Virus record (IMG/VR): IMGVR_UViG_3300025141_010109
Coordinates: 1 to 32,365 of that record
DNA from: a virus
Length of the DNA: 32,365 nucleotides
Reading direction: 5' to 3' (one strand)
Shown here: positions 1,183 through 17,731 of the stretch, one piece after another
Layout: each line of letters begins with the position of its first letter
Numbering within the stretch: position 1 is the first letter of the stretch
Made by a program: the position numbers and the translations under genes
The notes under the pieces: generated by a model
Told to the model about the DNA's origin: nothing
The model's input: the letters and a program-made list of their open reading frames with translations, nothing else
Database searches by the model: none

Positions 1183-2063
1183 ATTAATCTTGTTTTTACG
1201 TTAGTTCCATATATAGGTTCCACAAACGTTGCTTCATCTTCTTTTGGTAAGCTTCCCCATTTATTAATAAATTTCTGAACATTAGCTTGTTCAGCATTTA
1301 TTTGTCTTTGCGATTTACTTTTAAAATCATCTTTTGCTTCGTCTCTAAAATGACTGCCTCTAGCTGAAAAATGCCATACTACCGACTGAGTTGTCATTAT
1401 AAATCTATAATCTTCTAATTGCATTCTAATAAATAAATCTTTATCTTCCCAACTTGCTGGAGCAAATATTGGGTCATTACCACCAATCCATTCATAATCA
1501 GCTTTTCTGCAAAAGAATCCTGCCCCACCGCCTTTACGTACTGAAGCTGTATTTTCTTTTATGAATGCAGCTGACCATTGATCGAAATATTCATGGTCAA
1601 AATCATTATGATATGAACCAAATTCTTCTTCACTTACAAATATTGTACCTGGCCTATAGTCAGGGTCGTTAGGAAATATCTTTGGTTGAATCCTAAATGA
1701 CGATGCTATAAGTCTAACATTAGGTTCTATATTATCGTATAATTTTAATAATTCTAAGTCTTGGTTTGGGGCTATCCACATGTCAGCATGAATGATATTT
1801 ACAAATTCTGTTTTTGCTTTATCTACACAAAAATCCATTCCGCCACCTATTCCTTTAGGATTGTCATTGTGATCGATATAAGCATCTAAGCCAAGCTTGT
1901 CTTTATTTCCTTGTATCCATTCATCGGTTCCATCCGTACAATTTTCTGCGTGTACTACTATAGGCATATCTTTATAATGAGCATTTTGTCTTACTGACTT
2001 GATAGCTAATTTAAGATATTCTAAATTATTATTAGAGGATATACAAGTTGTTATTTTATGCAT
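1179..2063 (-). CDS. Family 2-like glycosyltransferase (GT-A fold)
   Basis: 294 residues. Seen: an N-terminal GT-A pattern (TCISSNNNLEYLKLAIKS), a short NCTDGT loop near 41-46, and an acidic metal-binding motif HADMW at 92-96 where canonical GT2 enzymes carry DxD. A WEDKDLF segment in the C-terminal half resembles the ED motif that supplies the catalytic base. Family role: transfer of one sugar from a nucleotide sugar to a growing glycan, normally at the cytoplasmic face of the membrane. It overlaps the end of the Gmd gene by 8 bases and couples to the following SDR gene by ATGA. The first position of the metal motif is His rather than Asp. Donor and acceptor cannot be read from sequence. Confidence 0.8.
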   Translation of the reverse strand: MHKITTCISSNNNLEYLKLAIKSVRQNAHYKDMPIVVHAENCTDGTDEWIQGNKDKLGLDAYIDHNDNPKGIGGGMDFCVDKAKTEFVNIIHADMWIAPNQDLELLKLYDNIEPNVRLIASSFRIQPKIFPNDPDYRPGTIFVSEEEFGSYHNDFDHEYFDQWSAAFIKENTASVRKGGGAGFFCRKADYEWIGGNDPIFAPASWEDKDLFIRMQLEDYRFIMTTQSVVWHFSARGSHFRDEAKDDFKSKSQRQINAEQANVQKFINKWGSLPKEDEATFVEPIYGTNVKTRLI

Positions 2064-3021
2064 TTTTTAAAATCTTTATATCATTATCTACCATTTTTAT
2101 AACTAGTTGTTGAAATGATGTTTTTGGGTTCCAATTCATTTCTAATTTTGCCTTTGCATAATCTCCCCTTAACACATCTACTTCAGCAGGTCTCATAAAT
2201 CTTGGGTCTTGTTTAATATAAGGTTCCCAATCTTTTATACCAACATGATTAAAAGCTTCAGTTAAAAAATCTTTAATTGAATGTGTTTCGCCAGTTGCAA
2301 TAACATAATCTTCAGCTGTATCTTGTTGTAACATCATCCACATAGCTTCTACATAATCAGGAGCATAACCCCAATCTCTTTTAGCTTCTAAATTACCTAA
2401 TGTAATATGATCTGCTAAGCCTAAATGTATTTTTGCAACGCCATCTGATATTTTTCTTGTTACAAATTCAATACCTCTTCTTTCACTTTCATGATTAAAT
2501 AATATACCGCTACATGTATACATTCCATAAGATTCTCTATAATTTTTAGTAATCCAATGTCCATATAGTTTTGCAACGCCATAAGGACTTCTAGGATAAA
2601 ATGGAGTAGTTTCTTTTGAAGGATTTTCTACCATTCTCCCAAACATTTCAGATGAACTTGCTTGATAAAATTTAATTTTTAGGTCGTGTTCTCTAATAGC
2701 TTCTAACATTCTTAACACGCCTAATCCTGTAACATCTGATGTTTGTTCGGGCGTATTCCAACTTTCTCCAACAAATGATTGAGATGCTAGATTATAAATT
2801 TCGTCTGGATTAGATTCTTTAAGACATCTTAATAATGAATTTTGGTCTGTTAAATCTCCCGTTAAAAATGTTATCTTTCCTTCTAGGTGATTTGTGTTTT
2901 TCCTGTTAGGAGTAGATGCTCGTCTTTCCATTCCATAGACTTTATATCCCTTCTCTAATAATAAATCAGCTAAGTGACTTCCGTCCATTCCATTAATTCC
3001 TGTTATCAGTGCTCTTTTCAT
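2056..3021 (-). CDS. gmd: GDP-mannose 4,6-dehydratase
   Basis: Converts GDP-D-mannose to GDP-4-keto-6-deoxy-D-mannose, the entry step to GDP-fucose, GDP-rhamnose, GDP-perosamine and GDP-colitose type sugars. Seen over 321 residues: the cofactor loop TGINGMDGSH (G8, G11, G14), SSSEMFG at 122-128 with the catalytic Ser/Glu region, and Y147xxxK151 in SPYGVAKLYGHW. These are followed by the Gmd hallmark FNHESERRG and a C-terminal RPAEVD segment with a DYAKAK-like stretch. Slightly shorter than many bacterial Gmd proteins (about 345-370) but all key motifs are present. It sits two bases after the preceding gene. The substrate assignment is the most secure in the cluster and sets GDP-mannose as one feedstock. 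Confidence 0.93.
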   Translation of the reverse strand: MKRALITGINGMDGSHLADLLLEKGYKVYGMERRASTPNRKNTNHLEGKITFLTGDLTDQNSLLRCLKESNPDEIYNLASQSFVGESWNTPEQTSDVTGLGVLRMLEAIREHDLKIKFYQASSSEMFGRMVENPSKETTPFYPRSPYGVAKLYGHWITKNYRESYGMYTCSGILFNHESERRGIEFVTRKISDGVAKIHLGLADHITLGNLEAKRDWGYAPDYVEAMWMMLQQDTAEDYVIATGETHSIKDFLTEAFNHVGIKDWEPYIKQDPRFMRPAEVDVLRGDYAKAKLEMNWNPKTSFQQLVIKMVDNDIKILKNA

Positions 3022-4028: not shown

Positions 4029-4785
4029 AAGTTTTTTTCATCCAATAATATGTCAACTGATCATCTTTATTGTTTGGAATACTATTGTACTGATATATCC
4101 ATCCGATATCAGTGAACGGCGAATTATCTTGTAATAATTCTTTACGGTGTAAATCGACCATATTGAATTCATATGGTAATACTTTATAATCTATATCTAA
4201 TAAATGTGTTAAAAAATTAACAGGCGTTTGGTCTGTTCCTGCATGCCATGTTTTTTCTGCATTTAATAAATTATCTCTATTTTGATCAAAAAATTGTAGT
4301 ATTGAATTAAAAAATTCTTTATGAGATTCATTAAATATTAACATTCCAGAATCAAAATAATGGTCAAATCTAAACATATAGCCATCAAAGAAATATTTTG
4401 AATAATTTTCTATACTACGTAATACCCAATCATAAGATCCATCATTATGTACAAAGCAGAATTTCCTTTCACTCAGTTCAAATACATTTGGACAATTGGG
4501 ATGTGGTATTGTATCTGCATCTACATACATTATCTGGTCATATTCAATATTATTTGCTTCTAATAAATCGAATATATAATATCGTTGCCATGATACTGGC
4601 ATATCCTCGTGAGGTCTTATAAGATCATTTAATATAAACAATTCACAATCATTTTTCTTGCTCCACTGTTTCCAGCTATCAATACAAAACTTATACGGGT
4701 CACTTCTAGTTTCTGCCCATCGACCGACTTCTTTTTGTTTGCCAGGTAATTTTACATCTACTATAAAAACAATATTCTTTTTCAT
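4006..4785 (-). CDS. GT-A glycosyltransferase, paralogue of the neighbouring fusion protein
   Basis: 259 residues. Seen: first strand NIVFIVDV, then WKQWSKKNDCELF, WQRYYIFD and the metal-binding D89-A-D91 in MYVDADTIPH. A later GTDQTPVNFL segment probably lines the acceptor site. Family role: metal-dependent sugar transfer from a nucleotide sugar. The protein upstream (4788-6125) is clearly related over its first 270 residues: both share the WKxWxKKNDCEL block, the IPHxNCPN block, FNESHK and GTDQTxVN. This indicates a tandem duplication. Here the DxD motif is intact, unlike in the neighbour. It begins two bases after the neighbour's stop codon and overlaps the next gene by at least 11 bases. 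Donor unknown. Confidence 0.75.
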   Translation of the reverse strand: MKKNIVFIVDVKLPGKQKEVGRWAETRSDPYKFCIDSWKQWSKKNDCELFILNDLIRPHEDMPVSWQRYYIFDLLEANNIEYDQIMYVDADTIPHPNCPNVFELSERKFCFVHNDGSYDWVLRSIENYSKYFFDGYMFRFDHYFDSGMLIFNESHKEFFNSILQFFDQNRDNLLNAEKTWHAGTDQTPVNFLTHLLDIDYKVLPYEFNMVDLHRKELLQDNSPFTDIGWIYQYNSIPNNKDDQLTYYWMKKTYEKLYEN

Positions 4786-4787
4786 AT

Positions 4788-6125
4788 TTAATTCATATTA
4801 CAAATTACGCCTTCGCGTGTTACAAATGTCAGTTGTCCATCTTTACATGTAAAGCCGGCATGTTCTCCAATATATTGACTTATATTTAAATTACTTTCAT
4901 GAATTGCAGATGGTATAACTCGATCTGGTTGTCCATAATCATCAAAAATAAGTATCATATTTTTATTTTTAGCTAAAAGTCGTTTGATATCAAATTGTAT
5001 TCGTTCTTTATCATGTCCAGCATCTACAAATGCAATATCGATATTATCAGGTATTTTAAAATCATTACTATATATGTCTAAGCAATTATATTCTATATTA
5101 TTAATATCTGAACATTTACTCTTTATTTGTTCTACATTTTCTAATGATTGTTCATATGAGTATACTTTTTTAAAACATTCTGCAAATACACGTGTTGTAT
5201 CTCCTTGACATGACCCTAACTCTAGACATGTTAAGTCTTTTTTATTTTTAAAAATTCTTAAAATATCTTCTTTAAATCTCCTACTGGTTGTTTTAACCCA
5301 CTCATCTTTATGAGTTAATTTATTTAATAGATAATTCTCGTCATAATTATCTTTTACAGATTTCCAAACATCTTTCATATATTTATTTCGATCATCTTTA
5401 GCAAATCCACTAAAGAACCATACGTGACCATATTTAATGAAAAACGGAGTTTCATCTTCTTTTAATTGCCAATTATGACCAAACATTTCTTTTCTGTAAA
5501 TATGTGATAATCTATATGGAATAGGCCAATATTCAATTTCAGTATTGTTCTTTTGACATATATAGTTAACAATTGTTTGGTCTGTTCCTCTTCTTACTTT
5601 TGTACTTTGTAATTCTAAAATTTCATCTAAGTTATCATAATAAAATTTTTCTATTTGTTTAAATAATTTTTTATGACTTTCATTAAACATTACAAATTGA
5701 GTACAAAAATATTTACTTATATCAAAATCAAAATTATCAAATATATGTTTATAACCTTCAACACTTTGATGAACCCAGTTTAAATTATCTTTTTCTAATC
5801 CTACTGTTAATTTGTTACCAAATGTTTTAAAGAAATTAGGACAATTCCAATGAGGTATTGAACATGCATCAACCATTGCAACTTTATTATATTTAATTTT
5901 TTTGTTTTCTAGAAAGGAATGTATATCAAACCAACGTTGCCACGTGACTCTGTGTTTAGATAGATCTTCATTTTCACATTTATCATATATCACAAGTTCA
6001 CAATCATTCTTCTTACACCAGAATTTCCAAGCGTTTATAGATATATCCATCCAGTTCCAGCCTCCAAATTTATCTAAATTTTTATCTTTTGGTGTAACTG
6101 CAGGTATAACAACTATATTTTTCAT
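4788..6125 (-). CDS. Fusion: degenerate GT-A glycosyltransferase plus SAM-dependent methyltransferase
   Basis: 445 residues from ATG at 6125, chosen because it aligns with the start of the paralogue at 4785; the open frame continues upstream only to a TTG at 6152. Residues 1 to about 270 form a GT-A domain paralogous to the next protein, with IPHWNCPN, FNESHK and GTDQTIVN conserved. The metal motif is D86-A-C88 instead of D-A-D, so metal binding and transferase activity are doubtful. From about residue 290 a class I methyltransferase domain follows: CLELGSCQGDTT (motif I), a YSYEQ acidic strand end, IDIAFVDAGHD and LIFDDYGQ. The methyltransferase may decorate the sugar added by the neighbouring transferase, with the GT domain acting as a binding module. 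That role is inference. Confidence 0.75.
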   Translation of the reverse strand: MKNIVVIPAVTPKDKNLDKFGGWNWMDISINAWKFWCKKNDCELVIYDKCENEDLSKHRVTWQRWFDIHSFLENKKIKYNKVAMVDACSIPHWNCPNFFKTFGNKLTVGLEKDNLNWVHQSVEGYKHIFDNFDFDISKYFCTQFVMFNESHKKLFKQIEKFYYDNLDEILELQSTKVRRGTDQTIVNYICQKNNTEIEYWPIPYRLSHIYRKEMFGHNWQLKEDETPFFIKYGHVWFFSGFAKDDRNKYMKDVWKSVKDNYDENYLLNKLTHKDEWVKTTSRRFKEDILRIFKNKKDLTCLELGSCQGDTTRVFAECFKKVYSYEQSLENVEQIKSKCSDINNIEYNCLDIYSNDFKIPDNIDIAFVDAGHDKERIQFDIKRLLAKNKNMILIFDDYGQPDRVIPSAIHESNLNISQYIGEHAGFTCKDGQLTFVTREGVICNMN

Positions 6126-6128
6126 ATC

Positions 6129-6152
6129 TTTAATATAATAATTTTTTTGCAA
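6129..6152 (-). promoter_or_regulatory. Candidate promoter-like AT-rich element, copy A
   Basis: A 24-base element in the 36-base gap before the GT-methyltransferase fusion. On the minus strand it reads TTGC, seven A, then TTATTATATTAAA. The copy at 31995-32018 matches it at 23 of 24 positions, although the flanking genes are unrelated, and a shorter relative lies at 18210-18230. The TATATT core could be a -10-like site, but it lies only about 10 bases from the ATG, so a transcript from it would be almost leaderless. A translation-enhancing A-rich tract is the alternative. No wet evidence. Confidence 0.35.
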
Positions 6153-6161
6153 TAAAACAAG

Positions 6162-6878
6162 TTATTTACAATAATTTATAATAGTTTCAATATATTTGTT
6201 TGCAAAAAGAGATATTTTTTTATTATAATCAAAATCAACATCTTCATTAAATACTTTTTGTAACATTTTTAAAACTATATCATCTTTTCCGTCTATACTA
6301 ACAGAATTAATATTATGTTCTTTTCCATCAAAATAAACGTCGTATAAAAACTCGATGTTGAAATTATCATATAAAACTTTAAAATTTAAATTTTTTGTAG
6401 TATTTAAGATTTCAACATCTTTTATTTTTTTGTTTTTTATATGCTCATATAGAAAATAAAAATCATGATATGCAAGTTTAAAAAATAAATCAAGTGGCGT
6501 GCTATTTTTAGAATTCTTCTTACGTTCTACAAAATTATTTTGTTCTAATTTATAATCTACTATACGAAAATTTTGTACATCATCAACATATAATTTAACT
6601 TTATGTTGTTCAGCTATATCAAATAATTGACAAGATTGTTTATATGTTGGTGTTAATGGTTTTTCACAAAATACATTTTTACCATTAGATAAACAATTTT
6701 TTACTATTTCATAATGAGTGTCTTCTGGTGTTGCAATAACAACCCAATCAATTTGGTCTAATTTATCCAAGTATGAATCTTTACTTCGACAAATAAATTT
6801 TATATCACAAAATATTTTAAGTTTATCATATAAAATCTTGCCCCATTTCCCATATCCTATTAATCCAATTTTTTTCAT
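6162..6878 (-). CDS. Short Gfo/Idh/MocA-type oxidoreductase
   Basis: 238 residues of an NAD(P)-dependent oxidoreductase. Seen: Rossmann loop GYGKWG (G8, G10, G13), VVIATPEDTHYE near 46-57 and the family signature E72-K73-P74 (CEKPLTPT), whose Lys is the usual catalytic residue. Typical family members have about 320-350 residues; here the C-terminal substrate domain is shortened by roughly a third. Family role: oxidation or reduction of a hydroxyl or keto group on a sugar, often a nucleotide sugar or inositol. It follows the DesII-like radical SAM gene by nine bases. If that enzyme produces a 3-keto sugar, this protein could reduce it, as the 3-ketoreductases of deoxysugar pathways do. That pairing is inference from position. 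Confidence 0.8.
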   Translation of the reverse strand: MKKIGLIGYGKWGKILYDKLKIFCDIKFICRSKDSYLDKLDQIDWVVIATPEDTHYEIVKNCLSNGKNVFCEKPLTPTYKQSCQLFDIAEQHKVKLYVDDVQNFRIVDYKLEQNNFVERKKNSKNSTPLDLFFKLAYHDFYFLYEHIKNKKIKDVEILNTTKNLNFKVLYDNFNIEFLYDVYFDGKEHNINSVSIDGKDDIVLKMLQKVFNEDVDFDYNKKISLFANKYIETIINYCK

Positions 6879-6887
6879 TTAATTATC

Positions 6888-8429
6888 TTATTGATGGTAC
6901 GTCCCAAATAATCCTTTTTTCTTAATATTAGAATTTAAATCTTCATTGTATACTTTTGTTCTAGATGAAACAGGTCCTTGTTCAAATGGTATTCCTACAT
7001 TTAAATCATCTTCTGCTTGATTTACTAAAACAGTTACTAAATGATCAAATGCGTCCATAAATCTACAATCATTTGATTCTAAATCTACTTGTGGTTGGGT
7101 TTCAATAAATTCTTTAACTATATCTTCAAATGGTTTTTTGTCTGTAATTCTACCAATAATAAATTTTTCATTTCCTGGCCGATCTAGGAATCCTGCTTCT
7201 CTATATAAAAATACATCTCCATAATTATCAACTACTACTGAGATTTGTGGATATGCAGCTTTTCTCATATCTAATCCATCAACCATTTTTATTTGACTTC
7301 CAAGTATGCCTTCTGCTAATGTAATCATTGCATATCCAAAATCAACATTTAGATTTGGACAATGTTTTTCTTTTTTCTTATTAAATTTTTGAAATTCATC
7401 TATTAATTGTGCTCTATCATCTTTTGATAAAAATCCATCTAATTCATGGGTTCTATCAATATCGTCACCTGATGTGTCTGTCATACTTCCAAAGTCTTCT
7501 CGAATAGTTATATAATCAATACCTCTACCATTCGTAACTTTTGAATTAACCTCAATAATGTAATCCATTAATTTAGACATATGACTGACATTTTCTGGAA
7601 TAATTATATAATTCAATCCTAATTTTAAATTAGGGTTCTTTTCATTTCTTATTTTTAAAAATTCTATTATATTATTTTTAACTAATTCATATGACCCTTT
7701 TTTTCTTGTTACTTGATATGTTGATTCCTCATCAACACCATATAAAGAAACTCTACAAGAATCTAATTTCAATAATCCAGGATGTTTTTTTATATATTGT
7801 TTTGTTAACATATAGGCATTTGTAATCAAAGGTACTCGTATATCTCGACTTTTAGCATAACTTATTATGTTACCAATTCTAGGATGAGTTAATGGTTCTA
7901 ATCCACCTGAAATAGATATGGTTGAATATTTTGGCATACTATCAAAGATGTCTTTAAATATTTCAAAACTTTGTTCTTTTATCTCACTTCTATATCTAGC
8001 CTTTTGATTACGTCCACAAAAGCCACAATAAAACATACAAGACATTCCAGGATAAACTCCTATTCGTACTGGAAAATTATATATCTTTTTTAGACAACTT
8101 TGTACAGCGCCTGTATTTACTAATGGAATAATTGTTTGCCAATATTTTTTTCCTAATCCTTGATTAATAATTATTTCTTGTAAATATTCTGAATTTCTTA
8201 TATATTCATTTAATTTAATTATTTCTTGTCGACTTGAATTAGTTTCTTGTATTAATTCTTTTTGAGTGTGCCATGGAATATTTGACATTCTGTGTATAAT
8301 AGTTACAATAGCATCAAATTGTTTTTCAGTTAAATCTGGTAGTTCTTTTATTAAAACATTTTTAACATCATTACTAATATCTAATGGCACGTTAGAATAT
8401 AACCATTTTTTTAAATTATTTTCTTTCAT
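6888..8429 (-). CDS. DesII-like radical SAM enzyme (sugar deaminase/dehydrogenase type)
   Basis: 513 residues. Seen: an all-helical N-terminal region of about 120 residues, then VRIGVYPGMS followed by the 4Fe-4S motif C131-x3-C135-x2-C138, and GGLEPLTHP as the SAM-binding GGE-like segment. Further on come RVSLYG, IDYITIRED, a VFLYREAGF segment and FMDAFDHLVT. These blocks, their order and the length correspond closely to DesII as I recall it from macrolide deoxysugar pathways. DesII converts TDP-4-amino-4,6-dideoxyglucose to the 3-keto-4,6-dideoxy sugar with loss of ammonia. No plausible C4 aminotransferase is visible in the window, so the substrate here is open. ATGA-coupled to the PIG-L gene and followed by the Gfo/Idh gene. 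Confidence 0.82.
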   Translation of the reverse strand: MKENNLKKWLYSNVPLDISNDVKNVLIKELPDLTEKQFDAIVTIIHRMSNIPWHTQKELIQETNSSRQEIIKLNEYIRNSEYLQEIIINQGLGKKYWQTIIPLVNTGAVQSCLKKIYNFPVRIGVYPGMSCMFYCGFCGRNQKARYRSEIKEQSFEIFKDIFDSMPKYSTISISGGLEPLTHPRIGNIISYAKSRDIRVPLITNAYMLTKQYIKKHPGLLKLDSCRVSLYGVDEESTYQVTRKKGSYELVKNNIIEFLKIRNEKNPNLKLGLNYIIIPENVSHMSKLMDYIIEVNSKVTNGRGIDYITIREDFGSMTDTSGDDIDRTHELDGFLSKDDRAQLIDEFQKFNKKKEKHCPNLNVDFGYAMITLAEGILGSQIKMVDGLDMRKAAYPQISVVVDNYGDVFLYREAGFLDRPGNEKFIIGRITDKKPFEDIVKEFIETQPQVDLESNDCRFMDAFDHLVTVLVNQAEDDLNVGIPFEQGPVSSRTKVYNEDLNSNIKKKGLFGTYHQ

Positions 8430-9049
8430 AACAAATCTACTATTCTAATTGATTCAAATGCTTCAACATACTTCCTACCAATTTGTAATCCACGTGTTCT
8501 TGCTATGTCTGTAACATACTCTTTACACATAAATGCTCGTTCTAATTGAGTTTCATAGCAATCTAACATTTTTATTTTTGCGTCTATATCTTCTTTAGCT
8601 AAGGAAATAAAAACATCTGTACTAAATGTTCTATTATTCCATGGTAATTCATAGCCTAATATTGTTGAATGTTTGAATGCTCTAAATGTTTCTTGATATA
8701 CTATTTGATGGTCTTGGTGATGATCGTATGATGAAGGACAAAATATAATATCATATTTTTCTTTTTGTTGCAAATTCCAAAAATAATCTAATAATTTTTG
8801 TCTAGACTCATTTAGAACTCTAGGTTCAAAATTTGCAAATGTTGCATTAGCTCCTATGACCTTCATAGCATTAAAAAATTCCTGTACAGGGTCTCCTGTT
8901 GATAATGGCTGCGCAGAAGTTAATGCTAATGCATCTATCTGATACGTATCACGATATTTATGTAATGTTGCTCCGCATCCTAATTCGATGTCATCTGTAT
9001 GTGGAGCAATTGCTAATATTCTTTTCATATTTATTTTTTTATTTGTCAT
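8426..9049 (-). CDS. PIG-L/LmbE family N-deacetylase
   Basis: 207 residues. Zinc-dependent hydrolase that typically removes an N-acetyl group from GlcNAc-type sugars. Seen: the signature AxxPHTDDIELGCG with H17, D19 and D20 (numbering from ATG 9049), and the second metal motif DHHQDH near residue 110, which supplies the remaining His ligand. Length is typical. The ATG at 9049 has GGA about seven bases upstream and overlaps the preceding gene by 11 bases. A second ATG at 9028, immediately before the conserved first strand (MKRILAIAP), lacks a visible ribosome site but fits the family's usual start. In this cluster it may free an amino group on a sugar before further modification or before the radical SAM step. 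Confidence 0.88.
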   Translation of the reverse strand: MTNKKINMKRILAIAPHTDDIELGCGATLHKYRDTYQIDALALTSAQPLSTGDPVQEFFNAMKVIGANATFANFEPRVLNESRQKLLDYFWNLQQKEKYDIIFCPSSYDHHQDHQIVYQETFRAFKHSTILGYELPWNNRTFSTDVFISLAKEDIDAKIKMLDCYETQLERAFMCKEYVTDIARTRGLQIGRKYVEAFESIRIVDLL

Positions 9050-9776
9050 CTGATTTCCAATTTTTTAATTTGTCAACAATATTATCAAATATATCTCCTG
9101 TTGTTTTATGTCTATCCATTGAGGGTTGTTGGTTTTGATATCCAAAAGCTATGTCTTCTGTTGTTTTATCTGGTTCTAATGCTCCTACAGGTATTTTTTT
9201 ATTTACATTTGGATGAATTCTCTGTTTATGTAAATACCAATCAAATAATTTGATAACTCTTAAATTAGCTTCCATTGCAAGGTCTCGTATACATTCATCT
9301 GATGATCTATGACATGTTACTAATTCTGCTATATCATACCATTTTTTACTTATGCCAAAGTGTGTTGGAAATTCATCTTTTTTCCAATCTTCATTGCTAC
9401 CAACTGTCCATATTAAAAATGGTTCATTTAAATATTCTTCACATGCATCGCTCATAAATTTATCCCAATTAGCTTTTTCACAGAATACGTCGTCGGCAAT
9501 AAAAAATATTATATCTCCTGTTGCAACTGTTGCCCCTGTATTTAGATATTGTTCTAATGGAATTCTTGGAGTTTCAAATATTTGTATATCTACATTATAT
9601 TTTTTACTCATATTTTTTATTTCTTGTAGATTCTTTTTTGTTTCTAAATCATCATCATCTATAACAGCAATATATTCTATATTTTCATTTTCTTGTGCTC
9701 TGACAATAAATGATTCTAAAGATTCGATTAAATATTTAGGCCTGTCACGTGACATTGTTACTAATGATATTTTCAT
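9039..9776 (-). CDS. Family 2-like glycosyltransferase
   Basis: 245 residues from ATG 9776, which forms an ATGA overlap with the stop of the kinase gene; a further ATG at 9818 exists but would lie deep inside that gene. Seen: GT-A first strand and loop KISLVTMSRDRPKYL, an acidic IDDDDLE segment near 39-45, and FFIADDVF near 90-97 in the place of the DxD motif. The C-terminal third (after about 200) is polar and rich in charged residues. Family role: transfer of a sugar from a nucleotide donor. Nothing in the sequence fixes donor or acceptor. It is translated between the kinase and PIG-L genes. Confidence 0.72.
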   Translation of the reverse strand: MKISLVTMSRDRPKYLIESLESFIVRAQENENIEYIAVIDDDDLETKKNLQEIKNMSKKYNVDIQIFETPRIPLEQYLNTGATVATGDIIFFIADDVFCEKANWDKFMSDACEEYLNEPFLIWTVGSNEDWKKDEFPTHFGISKKWYDIAELVTCHRSSDECIRDLAMEANLRVIKLFDWYLHKQRIHPNVNKKIPVGALEPDKTTEDIAFGYQNQQPSMDRHKTTGDIFDNIVDKLKNWKSDDK

Positions 9777-10510
9777 ATGGTTGCAACTCCTGATTTTTGA
9801 ACAACGGTTGTTGTACATTCTTGTGCAAAATTTATTGCTTTTTCGATATCATTACTTTTTATATATTCATAAACAAGCCCAGCTATAAATGTATCACCTG
9901 CTCCGGAGACATCTTTTACAGAAACATCTGTTGTTGGATATATTTTACCTTTATATTCACAACCATATTTACCTTTGGTAACAATTAATTTTTCTTGTAA
10001 CCTTGGATAATTTGGTAATTTTTCAAAATTCTTGTGATGTTCTTGACTATTAATTTTAATAAAGTCTATATTATTACACCAATTGCCTAAAAACTTTTTT
10101 GTATCTAAAAATACTGGACATTCAAAATTCTCAGCTATTAATTTTATATCTTCTTTTTCTAAAAATCCTTTACAATAATCCGATATAACAACTGCATCAT
10201 ATGAACGAGTTTTTGAATCGCTTACATCTGCAGATATTCTTTCACATTTATCATTTTCATCTACTCTTAATACCATTTGATTATATCTTTCATCAACATA
10301 TCTAATTTTTTTAATTTCTTTAGTATTTGTAATGATATCAACATCTGCTCCTAACACTTCTAAATTAACTTGTACGTTAGCTGCCATACCTGGGTTTGTT
10401 TTTTGATATAGCGGTTTTATTACTGGTACAGGAGCTTCTGGGGCTAGCCTTTCAATCTCTCCATACACAAATACATCTGTACAACTGTCTCCTACTACTA
10501 ATATTTTCAT
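9773..10510 (-). CDS. PfkB-family sugar kinase, HldE N-terminal-domain-like
   Basis: 245 residues. Seen: N-terminal VVGDSCTDVFVYG, then RLAPEAPVPV near 21-30, close to the RxSPEAPVPV block of HldE/RfaE kinases, an NPGMAANVQVNL substrate loop near 39-50 and the C-terminal catalytic GAGD motif with D206 as predicted base. Family role: HldE's first domain phosphorylates D-glycero-D-manno-heptose 7-phosphate at C1 on the way to ADP-heptose. The protein is about 70 residues shorter than the usual kinase domain and has no nucleotidyltransferase domain attached. It could act on a heptose or another sugar phosphate; the partner nucleotidyltransferase is not in the window. ATGA overlaps link it to the SDR gene before it and the glycosyltransferase gene after it. 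Confidence 0.78.
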   Translation of the reverse strand: MKILVVGDSCTDVFVYGEIERLAPEAPVPVIKPLYQKTNPGMAANVQVNLEVLGADVDIITNTKEIKKIRYVDERYNQMVLRVDENDKCERISADVSDSKTRSYDAVVISDYCKGFLEKEDIKLIAENFECPVFLDTKKFLGNWCNNIDFIKINSQEHHKNFEKLPNYPRLQEKLIVTKGKYGCEYKGKIYPTTDVSVKDVSGAGDTFIAGLVYEYIKSNDIEKAINFAQECTTTVVQKSGVATI

Positions 10511-11448
10511 AAATTTGTAAAATTACTATTATTGCAATTGATGATCATCTTATATGCTTTGATTAATTCTGTTATGCCTTGGTCTATTGAAATACTTGGT
10601 TCCCAACCAAAACTTTCTAATTTTTCATTTGAGACTATATAGTTTCTATTATCATGATCTGACTGAAAATCGTTTTCAATTATTACAAAGTCTGGAAAGA
10701 ACAGTTTTACTTTCTTTGCTAATTCTAATTTTGTAAGATTTGCGTCTGATAATCCTACATTGAATACATTATTCTTCATTTTATCATAATTCTCTATACA
10801 GAACATAAATGTATATGCGATATCTCTAACGTGTATATAATTTCGTTTATAATGTGATTGGAATAATACAATACATCCTTCTACAATCGCTTTATGAACA
10901 AAATCATTTACTAATAAATCAGTTCTCATTCTTGGAGATGCTCCAAATACAGTTGCTAATCTTAAACATATTCCTGCATCCCACTCTAAAATATATTTTT
11001 CTGCTTCACATTTTGTAACTGCATAGTGTGATAATGGATTAAATGAACTTTCTTCTGTTATGATATCATCTGAACTTCCGTATTGACTATTAGTGTTAGG
11101 CATAATCAATTTTTGTCCAGTTCTTTTATTATCTACAAGAGTTTGTATTTGTCCGTAATTCACCCGAGTTGCTAACTCTTTATCTCTATCACATGCATGA
11201 GCTCCTACAATAGCTGCTAATGGTATTATAATATCATGTTGATCTTGTAATTCCTTTAGACGTTCAGTATCAGTGACATCGCCTACCTCTAATCTAAAAC
11301 ATGGGTCGTTACAATAATGTAAATGTGATAACTGTTTATACATTAAATTATCAAATACAGTAACTTCATATCCATTATTTAATAATTCTTCTGTTAATAT
11401 CGATCCTAGGTAGCCTGAACCACCTGTTATTAATACTCTATCTTTCAT
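10507..11448 (-). CDS. NAD(P)-dependent sugar epimerase/dehydratase (extended SDR)
   Basis: 313 residues. Seen: cofactor loop TGGSGYLG (G9, G12, G15), PLAAIVGAHAC near 76-86, NTNSQYG near 118-124 and the catalytic pair Y142xxxK146 (HYAVTKCEAEKY). A later YIHVRDIA segment is typical of nucleotide-sugar SDRs. The start ATG has GGAG ten bases upstream. It lies directly after the ColD-like dehydratase gene, which makes it the first candidate to process the 4-keto-3,6-dideoxy product, in the role ColC plays in GDP-colitose formation. Sequence alone does not separate a reductase from an epimerase. Unlike the SDR at 232-1182 it has the canonical TGGxGxxG loop. Confidence 0.85.
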   Translation of the reverse strand: MKDRVLITGGSGYLGSILTEELLNNGYEVTVFDNLMYKQLSHLHYCNDPCFRLEVGDVTDTERLKELQDQHDIIIPLAAIVGAHACDRDKELATRVNYGQIQTLVDNKRTGQKLIMPNTNSQYGSSDDIITEESSFNPLSHYAVTKCEAEKYILEWDAGICLRLATVFGASPRMRTDLLVNDFVHKAIVEGCIVLFQSHYKRNYIHVRDIAYTFMFCIENYDKMKNNVFNVGLSDANLTKLELAKKVKLFFPDFVIIENDFQSDHDNRNYIVSNEKLESFGWEPSISIDQGITELIKAYKMIINCNNSNFTNL

Positions 11449-11450
11449 AT

Positions 11451-12626
11451 TTATGCTCCATTTAATATCTCGAGAAGTTTATCTATTTTACTTTTTTCTA
11501 ATGATGGATAATTTCCTATGTACCAACTAAAATCAGATACATGCTCTACTGTCGGAAATTGATCAAGTGGTACTTGCTTGTCCTTAAACATAGGCTGCCG
11601 TAATTGATTGCCTCCTCCTGATAATCCTCTTCTGAATTCTACTTTGTTCTCTCTTAATATATTTTCTATTCTGTCTCTTAATTTCCAATCTTGATCGTTC
11701 ATAATCACAATAAATGCATAATTACATTGTCCATTCATATGAAAATCTGTGTGATATTTTGTTGAATCTAAATTATCTATAAAATATTTGAAGTTATCAA
11801 TTCTTAATATATTGTTCTGATCTAACTTTTCTATTTGTGATAATCCTAACACAGCATTGATTTCAGTACTTCTAAAATTATGTGCTGGTCCTATGAATAT
11901 AAAATCTGGGTTAAGTTGTGGGTTATCATCTATATGCTGTTGTTTAATAGTTGGGTCATCAAATTCTCTTACCATGCCATGCGATCTTAATGATCTACAT
12001 AATTCATAAAACGATGAATCATTAGTACATACCATTCCGCCCTCTATAGTTGACATATGATGTGCAAAGTAAAAACTAAAATTACTTGCATATCCTATAG
12101 AACCTAATTTAATACCTTCGTGTGTTGCACCATGTGATTCACTAACATCTTCTATTAATTTTATATTATTACGTTTACAAATATCTAATAATCTTTTTGA
12201 TAACCCACTTAGTCCTAATACATGAGTAATGAATATAGCTCTTGTTTTATCTGTAATGGCTTGTTCTAATTGGTCTAGATCGAATGATAAATTTTTAAGG
12301 TTTATATCTACAAACTTTAAATCAAATCCAGCAAATACGACTGAGTTAATATCTGATATCCATGTTAGTGGTGGTACTATTATTTCTCCACCTTCTGGGT
12401 AGTTATTTTTTAGTGCTAACATAGTTAATACATTTGCTGAAGTTCCTGAGTTTACAAATACGCTATGTTTCACTCCTAACCATTCTGACCATTTTTGTTC
12501 TAATTCACGAACTTTAGGTCCATTAGTCAATCGTGGAAGTGGGTCTTGTTGCAAAAATTCAATCAAGGCATCTATATCTTTACGATCTATATTATTATCC
12601 ATTAATGGTAAGTTAAAATCTTTCAT
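11451..12626 (-). CDS. ColD/RfbH-type nucleotide-sugar 3-dehydratase (PLP fold, Lys replaced by His)
   Basis: 391 residues of the DegT/DnrJ/EryC1 aminotransferase fold. Seen: NSGTSANVLTMLAL (59-72) for phosphate binding, the IEDVSESHGA cofactor block (158-167) with the usual Asp, and FSFYFAHHMSTIEGGM (183-198). In ordinary sugar aminotransferases this last block carries the PLP-binding lysine; here position 189 is His. That exchange is the hallmark of ColD (GDP-4-keto-6-deoxymannose 3-dehydratase) and of the RfbH/E1 dehydratases, which remove the C3 hydroxyl using PMP. Unlike RfbH, no ferredoxin-type Cys cluster is visible, which favours the ColD branch. With gmd nearby the expected product is GDP-4-keto-3,6-dideoxymannose. 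TAATG start with a strong AGGAG site. Confidence 0.87.
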   Translation of the reverse strand: MKDFNLPLMDNNIDRKDIDALIEFLQQDPLPRLTNGPKVRELEQKWSEWLGVKHSVFVNSGTSANVLTMLALKNNYPEGGEIIVPPLTWISDINSVVFAGFDLKFVDINLKNLSFDLDQLEQAITDKTRAIFITHVLGLSGLSKRLLDICKRNNIKLIEDVSESHGATHEGIKLGSIGYASNFSFYFAHHMSTIEGGMVCTNDSSFYELCRSLRSHGMVREFDDPTIKQQHIDDNPQLNPDFIFIGPAHNFRSTEINAVLGLSQIEKLDQNNILRIDNFKYFIDNLDSTKYHTDFHMNGQCNYAFIVIMNDQDWKLRDRIENILRENKVEFRRGLSGGGNQLRQPMFKDKQVPLDQFPTVEHVSDFSWYIGNYPSLEKSKIDKLLEILNGA

Positions 12627-14161
12627 TAATCTCCTAATATCTTTCTTTTTAATTTAATTTTTGTGTTTTTTGATATATTATCAACAGCTTGTTTTCCATA
12701 TTTAGATTCAATCTTTTTAAGAAATTTTGGAGATGTATGAAATGTTGTATATGCATCATCTCTAAACTTTAAGATTTCTTCTGATGTTAATGTATCAGTT
12801 GGAATTGGCTTTGTTGTGTATGAATGAAATGAATATCCTACATAATCTGTTGGTAATTCATGTCCAGCTTCGACTGCATCTTTGTATAATTGACTTCCAG
12901 GTAATGGCATTGCCGCATACCCATTCCATCCTAGACAAGCCAGATCCATTGCTAAATCTAAAGTCTTCTGCATAGTTTCTTTAGTATCTGTTGGTAATCC
13001 AAATATAAAGTTTGCCATCACATTGATACCAACATCTTCTACTTGACGAACAACTGACTTAATATCTACATCTTGGAATTTCCCTTTAGATACTTCTAAT
13101 CGTACATCCCTATCACCACTTTCAATTCCAATACCTAACCACTTAATTCCAGCATCCATTAGAAGTTTTAATATATCTGGTCTTCTGATTGTATCTACTC
13201 TCGAATATGCCCACATTCTTAATTTATCACCATAACCACGATCTATTAACCCTTGACATAATGGTTTATAGTACTTTGGATTAAGTAAGAACATTTCATC
13301 AATTATCCTTACATTCTCTACACCCATTTCCACCAACTTATCAAATTGTTTTAATACAAATTCAGGAGACCAATATCTCATAAGACTATAATTTCCAGCT
13401 ACTCCTATTTCTTCATTATCATCTCTATTTAGGATATTAATCATACAAAATTCACAAGCGAACTGACAACCTAATGACGTGTTAATAGCCGCATATGGAG
13501 TTCTTTTATTATTATCATACTCTGCGTGCCACATTGGACATCTATATAGATCGAATGGTCTTTTGTTATATGGTAATAAATCCCAAGCGTACCCCGGAAG
13601 ATCTATATCCATTCTATCTCTTGGTACTAAATTTTCTGGTTGATTTATTTTCACTATATCTCCATCACGATATGCTATTCCTTTAATCTTCTCAAGACAA
13701 TCTGAATAATCTGCATATTTTAATAAATTTCTTAATGCATATACTCCTTCATTTGTAAATACAATATCAATACTCTTTTCCTTTTCTAATGTTTGTGTTG
13801 GGAGTGCTTGTACATGTGATCCTATATAAGATATTGGTATATCAATATTTGATTCTTTAATATGATTTGATAATGCGATTGCTCCACTCATCATCGTTGT
13901 TCCAGCATTTACGTTTTGTCCGTAAACTACAAAACAAATCAAAGAAGGATTTTTATCCCTAATAACATCACATACTTCATCGTATGTTAATCCAGCAACT
14001 GCAGTGTCTAAGATATCTACGTTATATCCAATAGATCTGCATGATTCAGCTAACATACAAGCCCATGTTGGTGGTTCTATACCAGCATAATCTTTTGCTA
14101 ACTCTTGATATATTCCTTGTAAATTACTAGGTGCAATAAATAATACGTCTAATTTTTCCAT
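12626..14161 (-). CDS. Radical SAM protein with B12-binding-type N-terminal domain
   Basis: 511 residues. Residues 1 to about 150 look like the cobalamin-binding Rossmann domain of class B radical SAM proteins (LDVLFIAPSN, then an alternating strand/helix pattern with CFVVYGQN and PISYIGSHVQALP), but I do not see the DxHxxG loop that ligates cobalt through His. The radical SAM core carries C232-x3-C236-x2-C239 (TSLGCQFACEFCMIN), followed by IIDEMFLLN, GIGIESGD and FIFGLPTDT segments. Family roles include methylation of unactivated carbons and other radical rearrangements. A GGGAG site lies about eight bases before the ATG. It overlaps the methyltransferase gene upstream by 13 bases. Substrate unknown; a sugar or sugar-nucleotide is likely from context. 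Confidence 0.82.
   Translation of the reverse strand: MEKLDVLFIAPSNLQGIYQELAKDYAGIEPPTWACMLAESCRSIGYNVDILDTAVAGLTYDEVCDVIRDKNPSLICFVVYGQNVNAGTTMMSGAIALSNHIKESNIDIPISYIGSHVQALPTQTLEKEKSIDIVFTNEGVYALRNLLKYADYSDCLEKIKGIAYRDGDIVKINQPENLVPRDRMDIDLPGYAWDLLPYNKRPFDLYRCPMWHAEYDNNKRTPYAAINTSLGCQFACEFCMINILNRDDNEEIGVAGNYSLMRYWSPEFVLKQFDKLVEMGVENVRIIDEMFLLNPKYYKPLCQGLIDRGYGDKLRMWAYSRVDTIRRPDILKLLMDAGIKWLGIGIESGDRDVRLEVSKGKFQDVDIKSVVRQVEDVGINVMANFIFGLPTDTKETMQKTLDLAMDLACLGWNGYAAMPLPGSQLYKDAVEAGHELPTDYVGYSFHSYTTKPIPTDTLTSEEILKFRDDAYTTFHTSPKFLKKIESKYGKQAVDNISKNTKIKLKRKILGD
12631..12635 (-). promoter_or_regulatory. Shine-Dalgarno site of the ColD-like gene
   Basis: AGGAG on the minus strand, four bases before the ATG at 12624-12626. 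The site sits inside the last codons of the radical SAM gene, and that gene's stop shares one base with the ATG (TAATG). It fixes the start and implies translational coupling. Confidence 0.7.
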
Positions 14162-14883
14162 AGGTCAGCTCCCTGTACTATCCAAATATGTCCAGGTATT
14201 ATCTGAACATTACTTCCGAATTTTTCATATACGGCTTTTTGAACACCAGGATGACCTTTATCTTTAATATAATCTAAAAGAAGGTCATCTTCGGAATATG
14301 TATCTACGAAGTTAAAAGTTTCACAATCATGGCCACAAAGAATGCTATCATCTTTCATTTTTGGGATACATAATTCAATATCTTTAGTTACAGAAGCATA
14401 TGTGTGATCGCAATCAATAAAGCAAATATCCAAACTTTTATCAGGAATTTTATTTATCATCTCATGTGAATTTCCATTCAAAATAGTTATGTTATCTAAA
14501 TAAGTACTAATATTGTGCTTAAAAAGTTCTAGAATAATTCTAGAATTATCTGGGGTCGAAGGTCCAAGAGGTCCTGCTAAATGTCCGTGGGAGCCTCTAG
14601 TTCCAATATTTCCTTTAAACCAATCAACTGCATACAAATGTCCTTCATTTTTATGTATAGTGTCAATATATCCTTTAGTAGTTACACCATCCCATACGCC
14701 GATTTCTGCAACATTCATTCCATCTTTTGCAGACGTTCTAATTAAATCTGCAAAATGGCCAACTGGTCTACCTTCTTTATGGTAAACTATCTTTTCTTTT
14801 CCATTAGAATCGGTAAGTATAATCTTATACTGTGAGCTAGGTCCATGGTCATGTACTAGTACGATTTCTATTCTATCTTTCAT
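14149..14883 (-). CDS. Class I SAM-dependent methyltransferase (Methyltransf_24-like)
   Basis: 244 residues. Seen: a 50-residue N-terminal strand-rich lead, then motif I NVAEIGVWDG (57-66), the acidic strand end YAVDW with D87, and LDICFIDCDHTYASV in the second half with a metal- or SAM-binding IDCDH pattern, followed by GHDCE. This pattern is typical of small sugar O-methyltransferases and cephalosporin-hydroxylase-like proteins. Family role: methylation of a hydroxyl on a sugar or peptide. The start is supported by an AAAGGAAA site directly upstream. The gene is separated from the TPP enzyme gene by 17 bases. Related methyltransferase-like sequences occur at 18250-18966 and in the fusion at 4788-6125. 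Confidence 0.78.
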   Translation of the reverse strand: MKDRIEIVLVHDHGPSSQYKIILTDSNGKEKIVYHKEGRPVGHFADLIRTSAKDGMNVAEIGVWDGVTTKGYIDTIHKNEGHLYAVDWFKGNIGTRGSHGHLAGPLGPSTPDNSRIILELFKHNISTYLDNITILNGNSHEMINKIPDKSLDICFIDCDHTYASVTKDIELCIPKMKDDSILCGHDCETFNFVDTYSEDDLLLDYIKDKGHPGVQKAVYEKFGSNVQIIPGHIWIVQGADLWKN

Positions 14884-14900
14884 AATTTCCTTTATTTAAA

Positions 14901-16784
14901 TTAGTCCCATTCTTTATTTGGAAACGTAACTGGATACGTTAACGTATCTAGATTCATTGATATGTCTAAAGGCTTGATATACATATTTTTTAAAAATTCT
15001 TCTCTATCTAAATATGGATACATATCTTCGATTGGTGTTTGCCATCCAATAATCCTTGGATCGTATTGATGATACTCTCTACAATCTACATCTATTATTA
15101 GTGGACCATCATGATCTAAAAGTTCTCTAATTTGTGTACGAACTTTATCATAATCCATTCCGCTATTTATACTCAATGTATCTAAGCCATAAGCTTCTGC
15201 TACTTTTAAGAAGTCTGGTGGACAATATCCTAATGGTCCGCATGCTTCCATTCTTCCTTCAAAATTAACTTTTTGAAATGCTTTTGTAATTCCATAAATA
15301 TGATTATTCAATACAATAGTTTTAACTCCTACATTGTAATTAACTAACGTTTGTAGTTCTTGAATATTCATATTCATTCCACCATCGCCGATTATACATA
15401 CTACATTTTGCTTTTTCTTGTCAGATGCAAACCAAGCTCCTATAGCTCCTGCAAAGGAGAATCCCATAGGTGAATTTCCATTATTAGTAAAATATCTTTG
15501 ACCGGTTTTAGTGTTAAATGAATGATTAGTTGCAACTACATTACCTCCACAATCAGCTACGAGAATATCGTCTTTTTTCATTTCATCTGATAATATATTT
15601 AAGAATGCATACGGATGTACATATTTCTTAGGCTCGAACATCTCTGGCGTGCATGTAGGGTATTTCTTTTTCCATGTGATACATTGCTTAGTCCACTTAC
15701 TGAAATCTGGTACTTCATCATGTTCAGTTATTGCTACTTGACCTGATTTTATTCTACATATTAATGCTCTGATAAACTTTTTAGCATCACAATAAATACA
15801 CTCATCAAATGGAACCTGTTGTAATTTTCTTTGCAGTCCTGGTTTATCTACATCAACCATATATTTTTTAGCTTCTCTTGCAAAACTATGAATATTTCCT
15901 CCAGTTATTCTTCCAGATATTCTACTTCCGATTGCTAATAAAAGATCTGAATTTTGTATTCCAAAGTTTCTGCCTTCTCCTCCGTATGTACCAATTCTAC
16001 CTCCATAGTATTCATAATCAGAACATATAATATCTAATGCATTCCAAGTTGGATACACTGGAATTTTTAACAGTCTTCCTAATTCTAACATGTCATCTAT
16101 TGCACCAGCCAATCTTACTCCACCTCCGATCATCAAAACTGGTCGTTTAGCTGTACTGAGATCTTTTATATATTGATCAATCTGATCATTAACTATATCC
16201 ATCTCGTATGTATTTTGTACAATACTAGCATCATATCCTATTAATTTATCCGGATCGATTTCGGCCTTTGCTATATCAATTGGCACATCAATATGTACTG
16301 GTCCAGGCCTACCCTCTTTCATTATATGGATAGCCTTTTCTAGTTCATATTTTATATCTTCTGGTTTTTCAATCATCACTGAATATTTTGTAACTGGTTT
16401 GAAACATCCTACTTGATCTGATTCTTGAAATCCGACTTGTCTAATCTCTTTTGTCGGTCTCATGAATTCTAATTTTATCTGTCCAGTTATGAACAAACAA
16501 GGTACTGAATCATAAAAACAATTTCCAGCTGATGTAATTAAATTTTGTCCTCCAGGACCACTTGTTGCCATAGCAACTCCAAACTTTCCATTTACCTTTG
16601 CATATCCTTCGGCTGCAAATCCACACGCTTGCTCGTGCATTGGTGCTATATATCTTATTCCTTTTGCCCTGACAAAACCATCTACTAAATGGCCTGTTGC
16701 GGCGCCATACACTTGGAATACTTCTTTTACGCCATATTGTGCTAAACGATTTACTAAATAATCTGCTAGTTTTATTTTTGCCAT
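14901..16784 (-). CDS. Acetolactate synthase-like TPP enzyme
   Basis: 627 residues with the three-domain layout of pyruvate-dependent TPP enzymes. Seen: N-terminal PYR domain with the cofactor-activating Glu E51 (MHEQACGFAAEGYAK) and SGPGGQNLITSAGNC; a central domain with MIGGGVRLAG and a Rossmann-like region; and a C-terminal PP domain with the TPP-magnesium motif G466-D467-G468...N473. Family role: decarboxylation of pyruvate or a related 2-oxo acid and transfer of the two-carbon unit. In bacterial sugar pathways the relative YerE adds an acetyl unit to C4 of a 4-keto-3,6-dideoxy sugar. Branched-chain amino-acid synthesis is the alternative, but no IlvC or IlvD gene is visible. It is immediately downstream of panB. 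Confidence 0.87.
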   Translation of the reverse strand: MAKIKLADYLVNRLAQYGVKEVFQVYGAATGHLVDGFVRAKGIRYIAPMHEQACGFAAEGYAKVNGKFGVAMATSGPGGQNLITSAGNCFYDSVPCLFITGQIKLEFMRPTKEIRQVGFQESDQVGCFKPVTKYSVMIEKPEDIKYELEKAIHIMKEGRPGPVHIDVPIDIAKAEIDPDKLIGYDASIVQNTYEMDIVNDQIDQYIKDLSTAKRPVLMIGGGVRLAGAIDDMLELGRLLKIPVYPTWNALDIICSDYEYYGGRIGTYGGEGRNFGIQNSDLLLAIGSRISGRITGGNIHSFAREAKKYMVDVDKPGLQRKLQQVPFDECIYCDAKKFIRALICRIKSGQVAITEHDEVPDFSKWTKQCITWKKKYPTCTPEMFEPKKYVHPYAFLNILSDEMKKDDILVADCGGNVVATNHSFNTKTGQRYFTNNGNSPMGFSFAGAIGAWFASDKKKQNVVCIIGDGGMNMNIQELQTLVNYNVGVKTIVLNNHIYGITKAFQKVNFEGRMEACGPLGYCPPDFLKVAEAYGLDTLSINSGMDYDKVRTQIRELLDHDGPLIIDVDCREYHQYDPRIIGWQTPIEDMYPYLDREEFLKNMYIKPLDISMNLDTLTYPVTFPNKEWD

Positions 16785-16788
16785 AATT

Positions 16789-17730: not shown

Positions 17731-17731
17731 G

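Follow-up and report, generated by a model that had tools for sequence, protein, structure and literature searches.

Identity of the DesII-like radical SAM protein

The virus record IMGVR_UViG_3300025141_010109 of IMG/VR was analyzed as a fragment of 32,365 bases, which is called the window here and to which all searches of the window refer. On its minus strand, a gene at positions 6888 to 8429 (513 amino acids, ATG start) encodes a predicted radical S-adenosylmethionine (SAM) enzyme similar to DesII, and a neighboring gene at 6162 to 6878 (minus strand, 238 amino acids, ATG start) encodes a short Gfo/Idh oxidoreductase. The chemistry of DesII, a dTDP-4-amino-4,6-dideoxy-D-glucose ammonia-lyase, is known from macrolide antibiotic pathways. 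The same pair of genes recurred in related viruses and in SAR11, an abundant ocean bacterium, and points to an uncharacterized route to rare deoxy sugars. In the following, loci are numbered with L and genomes with G.

The initial annotation of the window had described the protein at 6888 to 8429 as DesII-like, with the cysteine residues C131/C135/C138 and the blocks GVYPGMSC, SGGLEPLTHP, RVSLYG, IREDF, and YREAGF, all of which were found in the sequence. This identity was borne out by profile, PDB search, shared residues, and structural model. The NCBIfam model TIGR04426 (rSAM_desII) matched residues 34 to 479 with 357.6 bits (E = 9.6e-107). In the PDB, DesII was found with an E value of 9.4e-76 for 8hzv and of about 1e-75 for 8hzv and 8hzy, while that of the best chain not belonging to DesII was 5.2e-5. 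The alignment with 8hzv contained 138 identical residues of 380 (36%). Mapped on this alignment, 13 of 14 DesII residues of the cluster, the SAM contacts, or the active site were identical, with the roles of the residues taken from the Streptomyces venezuelae enzyme. The cluster ligands C141/C145/C148 of DesII correspond to C131/C135/C138, the SAM motifs G187-E190 and R238/S240/Y242 to G175-E178 (GGLE) and R226/S228/Y230, D323 to D312, and the active-site residues E408 and D456 to E411 and D459. Tyrosine Y324, replaced by F313, was the sole mapped residue that was not identical. Passages of the DesII literature propose E408 as the base and report the D456A variant as inactive (PMC11434129). 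Among 47 aligned DesII rows, E411 was kept in 44 of the 45 rows covering this position and D459 in 45 of 45.

An AlphaFold2 model of the protein, calculated from an alignment of 14 sequences, reached a predicted local distance difference test score (pLDDT) of 86.8 and a predicted template modeling (TM) score of 0.87. The top six PDB matches of this model were six DesII chains with TM scores of 0.76 to 0.81 by query length. The best of them was 8hzv (0.81/0.87), so that the predicted three-domain fold of DesII was present, and the seventh, at the same time the best chain outside DesII by E value, was SuiB (0.43/0.50). The protein is thus strongly supported by homology as a true DesII homolog and putative DesII-like enzyme. 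Best matches to SPASM families without shared residues, named beforehand as the outcome contrary to this assignment, did not arise, and a SPASM or viperin-like reading was ruled out by the DesII profile and model matches. A C-terminal SPASM cysteine set, according to what we take to be its definition, was not found; C138 is followed by three scattered cysteines in DSCRV, KHCPN, and NDCRF.

Compared to DesII of S. venezuelae (8hzv, 8hzy; TIGR04426), the window protein shares the predicted fold, the CX3CX2C motif, the SAM motifs, and the equivalents of E408 and D456, but differs by a longer lid, a score below the equivalog level, the lack of a visible C4 aminotransferase in the window, and its origin from a virus record.

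A long-lid subfamily in phages and SAR11

The DesII-like gene was not confined to the window. A scan of IMG/VR with one DesII sequence yielded 6 loci and a scan with an alignment 33 loci, including those six contigs, so that relatives exist in 33 IMG/VR contigs. A scan of one genome per species added 11 Pelagibacteraceae loci with DesII relatives. A tblastn search of 50,697 phage records with the protein gave no match, and a phylum-wide genome search at E = 1e-30 gave one in 398 genomes, which was the central genome of the search itself. For a phylogenetic tree, contigs duplicating others in the set (L029, L042 to L045, L047) were left out before collection, and 47 of 53 DesII-like proteins were kept after removal of identical copies and of the N-masked L095.

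The lid is the loop between D312 and R339, in the window roughly residues 313 to 338; the equivalent loop of DesII is described as disordered in several crystal chains in passages of PMC11434129. All 22 SAR11-type rows have a lid of 26 to 30 residues, compared with 9 to 13 in the other 24 measurable rows. With 26 residues in the window against 13 in each of three annotated Streptomyces DesII proteins, the long lid is absent from the latter, which complicates a simple two-gene story, and it argues for a substrate unlike that of DesII.

In the tree, the nine SAR11-type viral rows formed one clade (support 99/97) beside the 13 SAR11 rows (99/96), with a joint support of 100/100. This phage DesII clade as sister to a SAR11 clade is new here. 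The separate clades indicate that the phage genes form their own lineage in this sample and are not a recent copy from the host. The virus and SAR11 labels need two changes each on the tree, because L061, a partial DesII-like gene, and L093 group together elsewhere. The tree was midpoint-rooted, with long-branch warnings for both L007 rows, L061, L094, and L052, and also for L093 and L061 near L055 to L059; an odd composition was flagged in six rows, including the three of Streptomyces. Loci L002 and L030 share seven neighboring genes at 79 to 96% identity, yet their DesII proteins are only 62% identical and their partners differ, a single Gfo/Idh protein versus a fusion, which would fit an exchange of the module. 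Ratios of nonsynonymous to synonymous substitution rates (dN/dS, NG86) in nine gene pairs were 0.07 to 0.40 at dS values of 0.75 to 1.7, which are near saturation. Between the window and L002, they were 0.24 for DesII and 0.40 for Gfo/Idh. These values are consistent with purifying selection.

The short Gfo/Idh partner

The protein at 6162 to 6878 matched PF01408 with 61.8 bits (cut-off 24) at residues 34 to 98 and contains a Rossmann domain and the motifs E72-K73-P74 and Y137-H138-D139, the former being invariant across 12 aligned short Gfo/Idh sequences. Separate full-length relatives beside DesII have 231 to 256 amino acids, and the window gene is therefore not a broken long gene. A profile of the 12 proteins had PDB matches that nearly all ended by profile position 132, with 3uuw reaching position 193. 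When proteins from the window and from the DesII loci were searched with it, it gave 19 strong matches with 155 to 327 bits, one of them a fragment of 138 amino acids at a contig end; longer Gfo/Idh proteins with at most 43 bits came next.

When L094 and L096 are included, the short Gfo/Idh gene was present in the locus of 21 of the 22 long-lid DesII rows: all nine viral ones, including the window, and 12 of 13 SAR11-type genomes. The single locus without it, L008, is on a contig ending 174 bases before DesII. In 8 of the 9 viral and 10 of the 12 SAR11-type loci that have the gene, it was located immediately beside DesII. The profile detected no short Gfo/Idh protein at loci belonging to other viral DesII groups. 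The partner noticed at first in a single window can thus be generalized across the long-lid DesII loci.

Co-occurrence was evaluated in 297 genomes from the order of the SAR11 genome G013; the SAR11 label of the G-numbered genomes rests on this order. DesII was present at full length in five genomes, plus a partial, N-masked copy in G163, and Gfo/Idh at E = 1e-20 in 11 genomes (one copy partial). Both genes occurred together in four genomes, or five with G163 (hypergeometric P = 5e-6); after removal of the two seed genomes, it was two of three (P = 0.0025). A tblastn search of the 50,697 phage records with the short Gfo/Idh protein matched five of them, each over at most 36% of the query.

A separate precedent for the pairing is a stretch (L098) of plasmid pSGRIFU1 of Streptomyces griseofuscus, which encodes a dTDP-4-dehydro-6-deoxyglucose aminotransferase, desII, a glycosyltransferase, a short-chain dehydrogenase/reductase (SDR), and a Gfo/Idh family protein about 2.4 kb from desII. 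This Gfo/Idh protein differs from that of the window by its 324 amino acids and its strand opposite to desII, and it resembles the window protein significantly over a single stretch of 51 residues (4e-7). Such sets of desII and Gfo/Idh genes are typical of 4,6-dideoxy sugars such as chalcose.

A flavoenzyme as third partner

A DAO-type flavoenzyme was encoded in 9 of the 11 SAR11 loci, in two of these nine as a contig-end fragment, and PF01266 was found in both SAR11 flavoenzymes examined. In six viral contigs (L030, L031, L032, L033, L035, and L054, with L032 and L033 nearly identical), the flavoenzyme was fused behind Gfo/Idh, with Gfo/Idh at about residues 1 to 236 and the flavoenzyme at about 235 to 577, or some 45 residues later in L054. 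In L034, both were separate genes. The flavoenzyme as the third partner of the module is new here. In the window and in the 12.7-kb locus L002, a six-frame search found no flavoenzyme gene.

A model of the L030 fusion reached a pLDDT of 87.0. Its flavoenzyme half (residues 235 to 576) fell among glycine oxidase, glycerol-3-phosphate dehydrogenase, and other flavoenzymes, and the best structural match was a Bordetella protein of unnamed function (Z = 27.1, 312 residues, 3.1 Å). The flavoenzyme profile had weak matches in the PDB, the best at 0.003. The fold serves the oxidation of both amines and hydroxyl groups. In genome G085, a weaker flavoenzyme relative (140 bits) was one gene away from the DesII relative. 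In two SAR11-type genomes, a gene that is transaldolase-like as judged from its start (L011, 7181 to 7885; L088, 8606 to 9301) lies beside the flavoenzyme and Gfo/Idh genes.

Candidate sources of the amino group

The absence of a C4 aminotransferase had been stated for the window. This stands for the 32-kb fragment, although the host may supply such an enzyme, but a protein with the DegT/DnrJ/EryC1 fold does exist there at 11451 to 12626 (minus strand). It contains the motif AHHMSTIEGG with a histidine at the position of the lysine that binds pyridoxal 5'-phosphate (PLP) and is a predicted ColD-type sugar 3-dehydrase dependent on pyridoxamine 5'-phosphate. Its best PDB match was ColD (2gms), which likewise has a histidine at the lysine site. 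Where the window protein reads AHHMST, nine viral DegT proteins read [GLTMV]KN. A function as C4 aminotransferase was ruled out, since histidine replaces the PLP lysine. Strong DegT matches were present in 9 of 11 SAR11 genomes, and the nearest one on the same contig was about 10 kb from DesII. These genomes are incomplete, many of them coming from single cells.

Upstream of DesII, a gene at 8426 to 9049 (minus strand) encodes a PIG-L family de-N-acetylase (PF02585, 49.1 bits; TIGR04001, 53.6 bits with a cut-off of 182.5), the stop codon of which overlaps the DesII start (8426 to 8429). It is possible that this protein unmasks an amino group. PIG-L was detected in 5 of 61 loci searched (the window, L018, L030, L032, L033), where the 61 include five second copies of a contig and the nearly identical L032 and L033, and it adjoined DesII only in the window. 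A class I aminotransferase, assigned by eye, was located some 3 to 5 kb from DesII in the related SAR11-type loci L014, L016, L017, and L096.

Other viral DesII relatives

In a second viral group, each of the 18 contigs, which include several near-copies, had a DegT-family gene beside DesII. Nine aligned DegT proteins of this group retain the PLP lysine, so that amino-sugar company is common among the viral DesII relatives. The order SDR-DegT-DesII-DegT, which resembles desosamine sets, was found in nine contigs (L005, L006, L037 to L041, L046, L052), again with several near-copies. The second DegT protein of L005 matched QdtB and 2oga strongly; the first was weaker in the PDB, at best 3e-30. 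A pattern search found a TDE-like dehydratase motif in none of seven SDRs of the group, and the SDR of L003 had dTDP-glucose 4,6-dehydratase as its best NCBIfam match with 118.5 bits (cut-off 365). A complete DesIV-DesI-DesII-DesV set in these viruses was not supported, given the SDRs without the motif and the weak first DegT of L005. The records of L040, L041, and L046 with this gene order are very large, 262 to 345 kb, and Gp23 was found in those of L041 and L046 but not in that of L040.

Of the short DesII relatives in L055 to L060, the five included in the tree (L055 to L059) keep all checked catalytic residues and are in no recognized sugar cluster. One viral contig (L007) carries two DesII relatives, at 1326 to 2819 and 4549 to 5787, one of them with a glycine at the E408 equivalent.

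Proposed reaction and alternatives

The pair in the window may well consist of a C3-radical sugar deaminase, which yields a 3-keto-deoxy sugar, and a Gfo/Idh protein reducing this product for a surface glycan. The substrate, deamination over dehydrogenation, what Gfo/Idh catalyzes and in which direction, and the purpose of the sugar are all what we infer. SAM would be cleaved at the [4Fe-4S] cluster held by C131/C135/C138, and a deoxy-amino sugar linked to a nucleotide would lose a hydrogen at C3. E411 and D459 would together assist in expelling the neighboring amine, and the short Gfo/Idh protein would reduce or otherwise process the ketone of the resulting 3-keto-deoxy sugar. The product would most likely be incorporated into a surface glycan of the host (O-chain) or of the virion, which glycosyltransferases encoded in the cluster would assemble.

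Several observations weigh against this assignment. The score of the protein misses the curated TIGR04426 equivalog cut-off of 450 bits, and it is therefore named DesII-like and not DesII; no match above this cut-off was found in the SAR11 genomes searched either. With a substrate carrying a C4 hydroxyl group, thymidine diphosphate (TDP)-quinovose, DesII oxidizes and does not deaminate, and E408 mutants remain active, as given in passages of PMC11434129. Deamination is therefore not proven by the conserved residues. Six genomes (G028, G081, G264, G267, G303, G307) have Gfo/Idh but no DesII match, and in five of these Gfo/Idh adjoins the flavoenzyme, the same number of the 297 genomes as combine Gfo/Idh with DesII. 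G085 contains a short-lid DesII relative but no short Gfo/Idh match. The DesII relatives of 348 to 366 amino acids in L055 to L060 had no DegT gene and no short Gfo/Idh gene in sight nearby. No PLP-type DegT aminotransferase was found in the window, the one DegT-fold match being of the histidine type. The SAR11 loci L008 to L018 contained no full DegT gene, only an edge fragment in L014, and 2 of the 11 incomplete SAR11 genomes had no strong DegT match.

The oxidation of TDP-quinovose indicates that the protein could instead be a radical SAM dehydrogenase, which would oxidize C3 of a C4-hydroxyl substrate to the ketone without loss of a group, followed by Gfo/Idh and the flavoenzyme, for instance in a C3 epimerization. 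Computations in which the outcome of the DesII reaction depends on the charge at C4 (passages of PMC11434129) speak for it, as does the absence of a PLP-type DegT gene from the window and from directly beside the SAR11-type genes. The E408/D456 pair has been kept, albeit able to serve both reactions, and a radical enzyme would presumably be a costly duplicate when Gfo/Idh could oxidize C3 itself. This possibility is judged unlikely but to be taken seriously. The functional unit might also be Gfo/Idh plus the flavoenzyme, with DesII performing a separate step and merely sharing the surface-sugar cassettes with this unit; the window Gfo/Idh would then be a remnant or an exchange product. The two proteins occur as a fusion in six viral contigs, of which two are nearly identical, and of the 6 among 11 Gfo/Idh genomes without DesII, five have the flavoenzyme adjacent and G028 has it about 14 kb away. 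This arrangement is nevertheless improbable: six-frame searches found no flavoenzyme in the window and L002, which both have DesII and Gfo/Idh, DesII adjoins Gfo/Idh in G155 without a flavoenzyme match, and the presence of Gfo/Idh tracks the lid length of DesII.

Little credence is given to an amine that is unmasked by PIG-L, at C4 or, in a sugar of the N-acetylglucosamine type, at C2, and then eliminated beside C3 to give the 3-keto-deoxy sugar for Gfo/Idh. It would account for the missing aminotransferase, and it would agree with the long lid and the overlap of the PIG-L stop with the DesII start as well as with PIG-L in L018, L030, L032, and L033. The low number of loci with PIG-L, adjoining DesII in the window alone, argues against it, the class I aminotransferase assigned by eye is another possible amine source, and we know of no precedent for the loss of a C2 amine in the DesII family. 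That the protein has an unrelated radical SAM function, for instance in the maturation of a cofactor or in the modification of peptides (SPASM), is scarcely credible: the weak matches to W_rSAM_matur (65 bits) and SuiB are opposed by a DesII model that scores more than five times the bits and covers most of the protein, by the missing SPASM cysteine set, and by the setting in a sugar cluster.

The radical deaminase with its Gfo/Idh partner may be part of a wider picture, which is quite speculative and rather improbable as a whole: SAR11 and its phages would share a module for the removal of amino groups from sugars, composed of a long-lid DesII-like protein, a short Gfo/Idh protein, and the flavoenzyme, all acting on a single nucleotide sugar. 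The amine would either be unmasked, for instance by the overlapping PIG-L, or be handled by the flavoenzyme, with no dedicated C4 aminotransferase, and an old phage lineage of the module would rewrite the surface glycan of the host during infection. A phage DesII branch beside a SAR11 branch with a recurrent partner would bring radical sugar chemistry into probably one of the most common virus-host systems on Earth. The module represents an enzyme set with a testable product. The combination of a long lid with Gfo/Idh versus a short lid with DegT provides a natural contrast for what decides between deamination and dehydrogenation in DesII.

The surrounding sugar cluster

The remainder of the window contains a dense sugar cluster on the minus strand. 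Adjacent to the Gfo/Idh gene, a gene at 4788 to 6152 (minus strand) is conserved near the module; its product is methyltransferase-like in the C-terminal part (PF13578, 22.7 bits, below the cut-off of 26.3) and, by the authors' own reading, glycosyltransferase-like in the N-terminal part. A PfkB family sugar kinase at 9773 to 10510 (minus strand) has a 55% relative beside DesII in L002, and relatives of this L002 kinase adjoin DesII in L030 and L031. The neighboring NDP-sugar epimerase/dehydratase family protein (10507 to 11448, minus strand) has relatives with at least 67% identity near DesII in L002 and, via L002, also in L030 and L031. The cluster also holds other SDRs, an RmlC-like protein, glycosyltransferase and methyltransferase matches, a PanB protein, and a B12-type radical SAM protein.

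The gene at 2056 to 3021 (minus strand) encodes a member of the GDP-mannose 4,6-dehydratase family (PF16363, 429.9 bits), which shares this cluster with the ColD-like dehydrase and an acetolactate-synthase-like thiamine pyrophosphate (TPP) enzyme (14901 to 16784, minus strand; 65% identity in L002) in the region 11451 to 17763. This set could make a branched 3,6-dideoxy sugar, as for yersiniose. The gene at 16789 to 17763, beside those for the TPP enzyme and the RmlC-like protein, encodes a full-length ketopantoate hydroxymethyltransferase of the PanB family (324 bits). The B12-binding radical SAM protein at 12626 to 14161 was nearest to models of the HpnJ/BchE type, far below their cut-offs, and has more distant relatives in L002 and L031.

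Phage context and probable host

The right part of the window contains phage replication genes, including those for a clamp-loader ATPase at 27613 to 28542 (minus strand; phrog_168, 275 bits) and a small clamp-loader protein at 26919 to 27389 (phrog_225). Among the 12 matches listed for the clamp loader, the named phage of highest identity was Pelagibacter phage HTVC008M with 41.6%, yet Microcystis phage Mel-JY01, with 38.9%, had the higher bit score. The assumed phage origin is thus upheld by the virus record, two clamp-loader genes, and the likeness to HTVC008M. The window is probably derived from a T4-like phage of SAR11, a host deduced from the clamp-loader relatives with help from the DesII tree. 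A T4-type Gp23 capsid gene was found in 6 of 21 viral records searched, five of them with a DegT-partnered DesII (98 to 345 kb) and the sixth being the 169-kb record of L054.

According to the passages of PMC7029224 considered here, a hypervariable region of pelagimyophages holds most of their lipopolysaccharide (LPS)-type genes, rfaE, and cassettes termed "radical SAM"; its authors suggest a modification of the O-chain. These regions represent the same kind of phage and cluster as the window, and the passages name neither DesII nor the pair with Gfo/Idh. A text search of a paper on SAR11 O-chain clusters (PMC11898729) found neither "radical SAM" nor "aminotransferase," and no description of a phage DesII was found in the open-license literature as judged from titles and passages.

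A protein of 411 amino acids encoded at 29262 to 30497, without a Pfam or PHROGs match at 0.001, carries a DSGGYQ motif reminiscent of tRNA-guanine transglycosylases.

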